Shown here piece after piece: positions 894 to 7,868 of a stretch of 40,005 bases of DNA. Made by a program: the position numbers and the translations under genes. Every line of letters starts with the position of its first letter. Position 1 is the first letter of the stretch. Origin of the DNA: Clostridiaceae bacterium (GTDB taxonomy: Bacteria > Bacillota > Clostridia > DSM-8532); contig JAAYAD010000018.1 in NCBI GenBank assembly GCA_012719545.1, positions 1 to 40,005 on the forward strand, read 5' to 3'. Below the pieces are notes generated by a model, which was not told where the DNA came from, did no database searches, and was given only the letters and a program-made list of their open reading frames with translations.

Positions 894-2252
894 TTAATTT
901 TTAATAACTATATTCTTTTTCCATTTTCCTGATGCATAGAAAATCATCAAAATCAGACCGGCAGCCACACTGGCTATAGGCGCTGCAAGCCCCAATCCCC
1001 ACAGTCCTTTTTTCATTACAACTCCAAAAAGTATCGCTATGGGGACGCGGAAACCAATTGATGACAAAACTCCGCATATGGATGATACAAGTGTATATCC
1101 TGCCCCGGTTACAAGCCCATTCAGGCAAAATGTCGCAGGGACAATCAGATAATCAAAAGAAAAAGTCCTCACATATTCTACTCCGGCAGAAATGGTATTG
1201 GGATCATCATCAAAAATAGATAAAATCTCTTCCGGGAACAATTGGGTGAAAACAAATACTATAAATGTAATTGTAAAAGCAAGGGCAAAACCGGTATAGA
1301 ATGTCTTTTTTGCGCGTTCGATTTCACCTGCACCCATATTCTGTGCAACCATTGCCGAAACAGAAGAGCCAACCGCAATGGCAGGCAATATTGCAAAACC
1401 GTTGTATTTACCGACAATACCGACTGCAGCAGATGCATTTACGCCCATACTGTTCGCAATGGTGGTAAGCACGAGAAATGAAAAGTTCACAATTACATTC
1501 TGGATTGACATAGGTATGCCTACCCGCAATATTGTGAGTAAACGTTCTTTGACTATTTTAAATGAGCTAAGTTTAAAGTCGAAAGCAAAATCGCTTCTTT
1601 TTAAGGTAATTATACATAAGATCATGCTTATAGCTTGTGAAATAACAGTTGCAATTGCTGCGCCTTTTGCTTCCATGCCAAATACACCAACAAGCAATAT
1701 ATCCAGAACAACATTAATTGCACATGCTATGGAAACGAATATCAAAGGCCTCCTGCTATCGCCAAAACCTCTTAGAATAGCAGCAAATGCATTATATCCA
1801 AAAATAAACACCGTACCAATCAGCGTAACATCAAGGTAATCCCTTGCCTGCTGATATGCTTCTTCCGGAGTTTGCATTAACCGAAGTACTCCATCTGAAA
1901 GAAGCAACATAATTATGGTAAAGCCAATGCCCACAATAAGAAGGAATGTGAGCAGCGTTCCAATGGTTTCTTTTACGCCCTGTCTGTCTCCTGCACCCAG
2001 GTACTGGCCAATAATAACGGTACCGCCTACCGTCAGGCCAATAATAATATTGGTCAATATAAAAGTAACCTGTCCGCCGATATTCACTCCGGAAATGGCA
2101 GCAGTCCCTGAATAATTACCGACTATCAACATATCGGCAACATTATATAAACTTTGTATCAGATTTGATAACATAAAAGGCAATGCAAACTGTATAAGCA
2201 GTTTAACGACATTACCCTCAGTAAGATTTTTTTCAATAGATGCTTTACTCAT
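894..2252 (-). CDS. MATE-family multidrug efflux transporter
   Basis: A 452-residue integral membrane protein of normal MATE length with about twelve predicted helices in two homologous halves. The first half opens with KLLIQFALPFMLSNLIQSLYN and continues with NVADMLIVG, the classical MATE helix-1/2 pattern; the second half repeats it at about residue 242 (RVGIPMSIQN). Such proteins export cationic drugs or metabolites in exchange for Na+ or H+. The nearest ribosome-binding sequence (AGAGGA) is unusually far, about 15 bases, from the ATG. The gene is alone on its strand and is preceded by a leader with a short ORF and an intrinsic-terminator-like hairpin, described separately, which suggests inducible expression. 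The substrate cannot be told from sequence. Confidence 0.93.
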   Translation of the reverse strand: MSKASIEKNLTEGNVVKLLIQFALPFMLSNLIQSLYNVADMLIVGNYSGTAAISGVNIGGQVTFILTNIIIGLTVGGTVIIGQYLGAGDRQGVKETIGTLLTFLLIVGIGFTIIMLLLSDGVLRLMQTPEEAYQQARDYLDVTLIGTVFIFGYNAFAAILRGFGDSRRPLIFVSIACAINVVLDILLVGVFGMEAKGAAIATVISQAISMILCIITLKRSDFAFDFKLSSFKIVKERLLTILRVGIPMSIQNVIVNFSFLVLTTIANSMGVNASAAVGIVGKYNGFAILPAIAVGSSVSAMVAQNMGAGEIERAKKTFYTGFALAFTITFIVFVFTQLFPEEILSIFDDDPNTISAGVEYVRTFSFDYLIVPATFCLNGLVTGAGYTLVSSICGVLSSIGFRVPIAILFGVVMKKGLWGLGLAAPIASVAAGLILMIFYASGKWKKNIVIKN

Positions 2253-2274
2253 ATTGCTGCAATCAGTCCTCTTT

Positions 2275-2325
2275 CTATTCCGTCATTAACATAAAAAATA
2301 ATGCAACCACCTTGTTAGATTGCAT
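2275..2325 (-). CDS. Putative 16-residue leader peptide of the MATE gene
   Basis: In the leader between the MATE promoter and its start codon is an ORF with ATG at 2325 and TAG at 2275, reading MQSNKVVALFFMLMTE. Its start codon lies in the 5' arm of a terminator-like hairpin and its body covers the 3' arm and the T-run. This is the geometry of ribosome-mediated attenuation known for several Firmicute antibiotic-resistance genes. A purine-rich AAGG sits about 14 bases upstream, which is weak. No family match is claimed; this is inferred from layout. Confidence 0.4.
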   Translation of the reverse strand: MQSNKVVALFFMLMTE

Positions 2326-2328
2326 CAA
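2293..2328 (-). promoter_or_regulatory. Candidate transcription attenuator in the MATE leader
   Basis: On the minus strand TGATGCAATC pairs with GGTTGCATTA (10 bp including G-T pairs, loop of nine bases), followed after one base by six T. This is a compact intrinsic terminator lying upstream of the MATE start codon at 2252 and downstream of its probable promoter, so it would end transcription before the gene unless prevented. A leader ORF overlaps both arms. Confidence 0.5.
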
Positions 2329-2346
2329 GAATTAAACAACCTTATA

Positions 2347-2354
2347 ATTATAAC
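2347..2354 (-). promoter_or_regulatory. Extended -10 promoter element of the MATE gene
   Basis: The minus strand reads TGTTATAAT, a perfect TATAAT (2347-2352) with an extended-10 TG. A good -35 box at 17 bp is not obvious. Transcription would start near 2340, giving a leader of about 88 bases. Confidence 0.5.
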
Positions 2355-6773: not shown

Positions 6774-7528
6774 ATTGTTTCTCCATCCATCAGTAATTTG
6801 CGTATTTCAATACATTGCTCATAATACCCCAGCTGTTCTCTTGCCCTTGGTACAGAGTAAAAAGAATTTTCAATGACTTGAAAAGTACCGCCTGGCTTCA
6901 AAAGAAGAATATGTTTCCCCAGATAGACCGCTTCTTCAATATCATGAGTGATGAACAACATAGTTGCCTTTAACTTTTGCTGATATTTTAAAATCAGTTG
7001 CTGTATCTGCTCTTTTGTCATAGCATCCAGAGATGATGTGGGTTCATCCATTAATATTAAATCAGGATTTGTAATTAAAATCCTTGCAAGGGCAACTCTC
7101 TGCTGCTCTCCCCCGCTTAATTCTCTGGGATATTTATTCTTTAGGTGTTCAAGGTCCAATTCTTTAAGTAGGCTCAGTACTCTGTTCTGGATTTCAGAAG
7201 CTTTTCCTGCTTTGTTTAAGTGTAAGGGCATGCCTACGGCCTGAACAACCTTCTGCCACGGAAATAATCCAAGCTCCTGAAATAAAAATGCTGTATTCTT
7301 TCTGACTGATTTTATCTCCTGCTGATCAATATATATACTTCCTGCGTTTGGTTTTAAAAAACCTGCTATTAAATGCAATAAGGTACTTTTTCCAACACCC
7401 GATTTTCCTATTACAGCATAGGAATCTCCCTTTTTAAGCTTTAAGCTTACTTTGTTTAATATAATCTTTTCCCTATAGGAAAAAGTTACATCGTCCAATC
7501 GAATAAAACTGTCCTCGGCGTTACTCAT
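6770..7528 (-). CDS. ABC importer ATPase (SsuB/TauB-like)
   Basis: A 252-residue ATP-binding subunit with all motifs: Walker A GKSGVGKST, Q-loop LFQELGLFPW, signature LSGGEQQRVALARIL, Walker B DLILMDEP, D-loop SSLDA and switch histidine FITHDIEEAV. The VGKST/GLFPW combination is typical of nitrate/sulfonate/taurine/thiamine-precursor importers. The start ATG at 7528 (MSNAED) has AAAGGA at a good distance; an in-frame ATG at 7552 lacks a site. It is the first gene of a two-gene minus-strand operon with the permease. Confidence 0.92.
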   Translation of the reverse strand: MSNAEDSFIRLDDVTFSYREKIILNKVSLKLKKGDSYAVIGKSGVGKSTLLHLIAGFLKPNAGSIYIDQQEIKSVRKNTAFLFQELGLFPWQKVVQAVGMPLHLNKAGKASEIQNRVLSLLKELDLEHLKNKYPRELSGGEQQRVALARILITNPDLILMDEPTSSLDAMTKEQIQQLILKYQQKLKATMLFITHDIEEAVYLGKHILLLKPGGTFQVIENSFYSVPRAREQLGYYEQCIEIRKLLMDGETI

Positions 7529-7868
7529 ACTTATCCTTTTCTTTAAAGTCATTATTATTTGCGAGAAATATTCTTTACACCACTTCTAATAATTAAGTGC
7601 AAGCTTTCATATTTGATTCAATGTTTCACAAAGACCCAGTCTTACTTAATATAATATTCCGTTTTAGGAATGCATCAAAGACATAATCCTACATAATATT
7701 ATCGGAAAGAAAGTGCGAAATCAATTTTAAAAGGACACACTTGATTCAGCTATAACAGTAATTAGGTCTTCTTTCTGAACATTAAGAAAATGTATTGGAG
7801 GCCTAGCCCATCCTGCGATAAAGACTATCCCTCCAGGCGGGATGGAAATGGCTCTTTAGTAGCTTGGT
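7529..7868. other. Intergenic stretch between hypE and the ABC importer ATPase
   Basis: About 340 bases between the end of the ech-hyp unit and the next minus-strand operon. On the minus strand TTGCAC and TGTAAA, 17 bp apart near 7575-7605, are a weak candidate promoter for the importer operon, with an overlapping CACTT...AAGTG dyad. A G/C-rich hairpin at 7809-7845 is listed separately. No ORF or known riboswitch was recognised; in particular the TPP-riboswitch core motifs are absent. Confidence 0.4.
7809..7845 (-). other. G/C-rich hairpin just after hypE
   Basis: CCATCCTGC pairs with GCGGGATGG (nine bp, one wobble) around about 20 bases that contain the alternative stem ATCCC/GGGAT. It lies 24 bases past the hypE stop, where a terminator is expected, but no T-run follows on the minus strand. 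It could be an mRNA 3'-end stabiliser or a terminator of unusual type. Confidence 0.35.

Follow-up and report, generated by a model that had tools for sequence, protein, structure and literature searches.

A conserved promoter-proximal terminator hairpin ahead of a MATE efflux transporter gene, a probable clade-specific transcription attenuator

Does the small hairpin that lies between the promoter and the start codon of a MATE family efflux transporter gene control transcription of this gene, and might a ribosome take part in this control? The gene lies in a stretch of 40,005 nucleotides, here called the window, which belongs to a host assembly with 102 contigs and a total length of 2.95 Mb. 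It runs from an ATG at 2252 to 894 on the minus strand, to which all window coordinates below refer, and encodes 452 amino acids that match PF01554 (2.7e-58) and TIGR00797 (2.9e-72, above its cut-off). The nearest solved sequence is BH2163 (E 8.9e-34) and, among the named MATE equivalogs listed, the protein is far below the cut-off of every one.

An earlier note on this DNA had described a promoter, a hairpin, a T-run and a 16-codon frame between 2355 and 2252, and all four are found at the positions it gave. The promoter is of the extended −10 type, with TTGCTT at 2377–2372, TG at 2355–2354 and TATAAT at 2352–2347; the full extended −10 reads TGTTATAAT (2355–2347) and the −35 is weak, since the spacer between the two elements is 19 nt. 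A partly palindromic CTTTATGNNAAG-like stretch lies between −35 and −10 (2377–2363); several leaders have it, and a transcription factor might bind there. Transcription is predicted to start near 2340, and a 5′ spacer (2340–2328) precedes the hairpin (2327–2299), which is composed of a 5′ arm TGATGCAATC (2327–2318), a loop of 9 nt (2317–2309) and a 3′ arm GGTTGCATTA (2308–2299). Its 10 pairs include two G-U and three G-C, and it is followed by six T (2298–2293), where the 3′ end of a terminated RNA would be expected. The 16-codon frame, MQSNKVVALFFMLMTE, starts within the 5′ arm (ATG at 2325) and ends with TAG at 2275, inside the Shine-Dalgarno sequence of MATE, AGAAAGAGG (2276–2268); whether this frame is translated is doubtful. 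Farther upstream, a 14-pair hairpin with a T-run (2505–2475) probably serves as 3′ terminator for the frame 3108–2596 and separates that frame from the MATE promoter.

An early transcript of 50 nt folds at −10.8 kcal/mol versus −5.3 ± 1.9 in shuffled versions (z −2.9; 3 of 200 shuffles equally good). The fold of the whole 98-nt leader is not unusual against shuffles (z −0.73), and the hairpin is absent from a consensus terminator scan of the window, in which the loop was limited to 8 nt. In 20 stretches of the host genome including the window (316,925 bases), 5 of 497 exact TATAAT sites, the MATE leader included, have a gap-free terminator-like stem of at least 7 bp that begins 12–44 nt from the first base of TATAAT, a count made irrespective of gene starts and by a scan that misses bulged stems.

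The decisive test of the reality of the hairpin is conservation. When the leaders of orthologous MATE genes are aligned, as the earlier note had proposed, the stem, whose lack of conservation would have counted against that note, is kept in 12 of 14 close orthologues. Orthologues were gathered in 61 genomes, those of 60 relatives plus that of the window, and by scanning species genomes with a peptide pattern (30 loci). Duplicates were dropped (L031–L036 and L041 repeat L002, L003, L005, L004, L008, L009 and L006; L042 and L044 repeat L011 and L012), and the close set contains 14 distinct orthologues, that of the window (L001) and 13 others at 79–86% identity. The 12 intact leaders share TATAAT, a spacer, ATGCARTC (replaced by CTGCAGTC in L006), a loop, GRTTGCAT and a T-run; in their minimum-energy folds the hairpin is kept in 11, and in L039 the 5′ arm pairs with downstream sequence instead. 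TATAAT is present upstream of 13 of the 14 genes and missing in L037, which has no such leader. L038, counted within the 14 and outside the 12, has lost the 3′ arm and the T-run but still has its promoter and the greater part of the 5′ arm, and is thus a natural broken version. The losses in L038 and L037 show that the leader is dispensable. Among homologues at 69–72% identity, it is absent in L011, L012, L013, L043 and L045; L014, with only 20 nt of upstream sequence, was left unjudged.

Over the 66 pairs of the 12 intact leaders, the arms and five tail bases have a mean identity of 94% (minimum 81%), and fourfold-degenerate sites of MATE a mean identity of 46% (range 29–71%). Where an arm differs, only one side of the pair has changed and a G-U pair results, an outer pair in L006 being the exception. 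No double compensatory change was found in the 9 pairs examined, so conservation of the sequence is better shown than conservation of pairing. The distance from the predicted +1 to the ATG is 14–16 nt in 11 of the 12 and 10 nt in L004, and the coefficient of variation of the TATAAT-to-ATG length (0.07) is lower than that of the loop (0.31) or the 3′ spacer (0.49), while the 5′ spacer sequence is 46% identical (32% expected from composition). The constraint between promoter and hairpin is therefore on length more than on sequence, which is compatible with ribosome entry but also with any constraint on the timing of the polymerase. Loop length ranges from 1 to 12 nt, as suits an RNA hairpin. The promoter, the hairpin and the U-run, together with their conservation and their co-inheritance with MATE described below, can be read directly from these sequences.

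On the MATE tree the close set is supported at 98/97, and three changes suffice to account for the distribution of the leader, which may be read as one gain and two losses. L039, whose leader has contig coordinates identical to those of a match in a genome from another family of the class (G330), falls within the close set on this tree. We compared neighbouring genes by clustering open frames of at least 90 amino acids. An upstream neighbour is common to one pair only (L003 and L006) among the 11 orthologues with one listed, and a downstream neighbour to none of 13; two further clusters of frames recur, at positions that vary. Since the neighbours differ, the hairpin is unlikely to be the 3′ terminator of another gene, and these comparisons indicate that it is inherited together with MATE through differing gene neighbourhoods.

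A strict leader pattern finds 7 sites in 32 genomes of the family and 7 in 391 genomes of the class, at MATE only in both cases; it misses the MATE leaders of L001 (the window), L002 and L006, in which one or two arm or tail bases differ. A relaxed pattern finds 12 sites in the 32 genomes, nine at MATE, one ahead of an aminoacyl-tRNA editing gene and two others judged to be chance, one within a reading frame and one several hundred nucleotides ahead of the next gene. In the same 32 genomes, a covariance model finds 10 matches at MATE, the tRNA-editing site (E 0.065) and a match between cell-division genes (E 0.10) that was taken for an ordinary terminator. With stricter filters, it gives 16 matches in the 391 genomes, 10 at MATE and 6 others, the latter close to the approximately 8 expected at E ≤ 0.02 per genome; these 6 look by eye like ordinary terminators, with no exact TATAAT within the preceding 60 nt.

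The tRNA-editing site is a second promoter-proximal leader, found in the genome of the window itself and built in the same way (G000:C2:7521–7582, minus strand, about 1501–1562 of L078). It has TGTGTTATAAT and an ATG (ATG CAA) in the 5′ arm of a bulged stem ending in GGTTGCATTATTTTT (fold z −2.5; covariance match over 7521–7570, 30.9 bits), and its frame, read by eye, ends just past the T-run. It lies ahead of a PF04073 aminoacyl-tRNA editing gene that has a second gene of this kind next to it. Its score alone does not distinguish it from ordinary terminators; what sets it apart is its position and its spacing from the promoter. The pattern TATAAT-N(12-24)-ATGCA-N(5-35)-TGCATTATTTT has 9 sites in the 391 genomes, eight at MATE plus this one, versus 1 for a reversed control pattern. 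It is absent from the two nearest tRNA-editing orthologues (66–72%) and, not being conserved in them, is a lead only. A link between an exporter and tRNA editing would, speculatively, suit a signal of translation stress.

The leader frame shows both conserved and variable properties. Its ATG is present in 11 of the 12 intact leaders, with CTG in L006. The window's 16-codon frame is by itself not beyond chance, as 39% of versions with shuffled loop and spacer contain one as long or longer. Across the 12 leaders, frame 0 stays open to a point 7 nt past the T-run in all 12, and frames 1 and 2 in 7 and 2, respectively; shuffles give 6.8 leaders open in frame 0 to this point when mononucleotide (P<0.001) and 8.9 when dinucleotide (P 0.02), the excess is weak when the frame is followed through the T-run alone (P 0.056 and 0.23), and an ORF of at least 12 codons is present in all 12 versus 8.4 in shuffles (P 0.009), all these P values being optimistic because the leaders are related by descent. 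Nine leaders have an ORF, of 13 to 29 codons, that ends ahead of MATE, which is not above shuffles (10.0), and in L003, L008 and L009 the frame runs in frame into MATE. Loop lengths of 10 and 1 versus 9, 12 and 6 cause the 3′ arm to be read in two different frames, and the peptide, the frame across the loop and the stop all vary. Conservation of this ORF, which the earlier note had proposed to check, is thus seen for the ATG and the MQS codons, a stretch that is the stem itself, and not for the frame across the loop or the stop.

No conserved Shine-Dalgarno sequence precedes the leader ATG in the 12 leaders, and its predicted 5′ UTR is only 10–16 nt. The hybrid energy with the anti-Shine-Dalgarno is +0.9 to −3.2 kcal/mol ahead of this ATG (13 leaders), compared with −4.6 to −9.8 kcal/mol ahead of MATE (−1.9 in L009, an exception), and in 7 of the 12 leaders no such pairing exceeds −0.2 kcal/mol in stability. 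At the extreme 5′ end, 13–14 nt ahead of the ATG, 5 of the 12 (L001, L002, L005, L006 and L007) have a weak AGG or GAG. The Shine-Dalgarno sequence of MATE itself being 15 nt away from its ATG, a long spacing would not alone bar the use of AGG or GAG. This 15-nt spacing is found in 9 of the 12 leaders by script and in 10 if, by eye, the first ATG of L009 is taken (the window, 2276–2253, with L002–L004, L006–L009, L039 and L040). The usual spacing is 5–10 nt, and start selection or initiation at MATE may be unusual.

Between its promoter and its gene an intrinsic-terminator attenuator has a hairpin with a U-run behind it, an arrangement that is found here. Our preferred explanation is that the leader is probably a clade-specific transcription attenuator, a promoter-proximal intrinsic terminator ahead of MATE. 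RNA polymerase would start near 2340, transcribe about 48 nt and meet a weak, fully paired hairpin and U-run at 2327–2293; many transcripts would end there and a fraction of polymerases would continue into MATE. With a stability of about −10 kcal/mol the stem is marginal, and readthrough would be expected to rise if the 5′ arm were occupied while it emerges, most likely by a 30S subunit or ribosome sitting at the arm's AUG, alternatively by an RNA-binding factor. From the conserved features we infer termination, its conditionality and its relief, with decreasing confidence: the terminator very probably limits MATE, termination is somewhat more likely conditional than fixed, and only tentatively would we name the ribosome as the agent that relieves it. 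The earlier note had proposed ribosome-mediated attenuation. The conserved terminator between a conserved promoter and MATE supports transcription attenuation, and the part assigned to the ribosome finds support in the AUG within the arm and in the open frame, but not in the Shine-Dalgarno, frame or stop.

We saw no antiterminator in the 12 leaders: the fold energy of the RNA that precedes the 3′ arm is between 0 and −2.6 kcal/mol, close to that of shuffles. The 5′ arm pairs with the MATE start region better than in shuffles when the leaders are summed (P 0.006), an effect carried by 4 of the 12 (L001, L003, L005 and L040, P ≤ 0.04), the other 8 not being significant at P ≤ 0.05; this partner lies downstream of the terminator and so cannot serve as an antiterminator. 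A known riboswitch, T-box or other Rfam leader was rejected, as no covariance model matches at gathering in the window, the best match on the leader strand reaching 17.5 bits against a gathering threshold of 60.

How termination might be relieved, or whether it is relieved at all, can be weighed from the same observations. If a ribosome initiating on the leader ORF, or stalled on it by a drug, prevented the 5′ arm from pairing, MATE would be transcribed. The position of the AUG inside the arm, the near-fixed distance from +1 to this AUG and the frame that is open past the T-run in every leader, when the two other frames are mostly closed or closed in part, all fit this idea, as do the ATG CAA in the arm of the tRNA-editing leader with its frame stopping just past the T-run, and the weak AGG or GAG placed about as far from the AUG as the Shine-Dalgarno of MATE is from its own. 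Against it stand the lack of anti-Shine-Dalgarno pairing in most leaders together with the very short 5′ UTR, a peptide, frame and stop that are not conserved, with three frames fused to MATE, the number of ORFs ending before MATE and the frames followed to the T-run only, which do not clearly exceed shuffles, and the lack of an antiterminator. Because two of the features sought, a conserved Shine-Dalgarno and an antiterminator, were not found, we do not place the leader in the ribosome-mediated class, and we hold relief by a ribosome to be possible but doubtful. A bolder version, a minimal ribosome-entry attenuator, would have an AUG lying 10–16 nt from the 5′ end in a terminator arm with no conserved Shine-Dalgarno, where near-leaderless initiation decides readthrough, and the same device on an exporter and on an aminoacyl-tRNA editing enzyme would form a two-gene translation-stress regulon; we consider this quite improbable.

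A terminator of fixed readthrough could also simply set a low basal level of MATE in response to no signal. Such constant damping agrees with the lack of an antiterminator, of an Rfam match and of a neighbour gene common to most orthologues, and with the retention of MATE where the leader was lost, twice; but a weaker promoter would achieve the same effect, and near-invariant arms at a near-fixed distance from the promoter exceed what damping needs, and on balance we think it rather unlikely. That the arms are conserved in sequence, beyond pairing, and that the second leader of the same genome has ATGCAA/GGTTGCATTATTTTT in common with them would be expected if an RNA-binding protein or a small RNA acting in trans recognized the AUGCARUC/GRUUGCAU stem and controlled termination. 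However, the patterns and model used give just one or two sites in a genome, the second leader has a different apical stem and no candidate regulator was found, which makes a trans-acting factor unlikely. The arms are also near-palindromic and close to the promoter, as a DNA operator for a repressor just 3′ of +1 would be. The half-sites are, however, 1, 6, 9, 10 or 12 nt apart, which is unfit for one dimer, the T-run is present on one side only and the arm changes are compatible with G-U pairing; we rejected the operator, a very improbable reading, on the half-site spacing.

The attenuator that we favour has relatives among known leaders. Like the leader of vmlR in Bacillus subtilis, it places an intrinsic terminator between a promoter and a resistance-type gene and has a short upstream ORF. 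The vmlR leader is 219 nt long, with a Shine-Dalgarno-driven tripeptide ORF that requires its Shine-Dalgarno, an anti-antiterminator, an antiterminator and pause hairpins, whereas the terminator of the MATE leader ends about 48 nt past +1, with no antiterminator seen and with the AUG inside the terminator arm (PMC9226507). The requirement for a Shine-Dalgarno in vmlR speaks, by contrast, against ribosome mediation at MATE. In the bmrB-bmrCD attenuator of B. subtilis, a leader ORF overlaps a terminator-like hairpin upstream of a multidrug transporter, as it does here (PMC4191407). In the passages covered of a survey of predicted 5′ UTR terminators, these are less stable than 3′ ones, and attenuators are known ahead of transporters and are able to hop between genes; the weak 5′ UTR terminator ahead of MATE resembles these predicted terminators and ABC-leaders, among which those passages contain no MATE transporter, and differs from the five ABC-leaders depicted there, which can form antiterminators (PMC2965389). 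Searches of open-licence PMC articles brought up no MATE gene with such a leader, judged by title or start of abstract. At about 50 nt the probable attenuator is compact enough for every base to be tested, and it accompanies its gene across more than one family and across changes of neighbouring genes. Should termination prove to be relieved by a ribosome at an AUG that lacks a proper Shine-Dalgarno, the leader would be a sensor simpler than those with several hairpins known from Bacillus.
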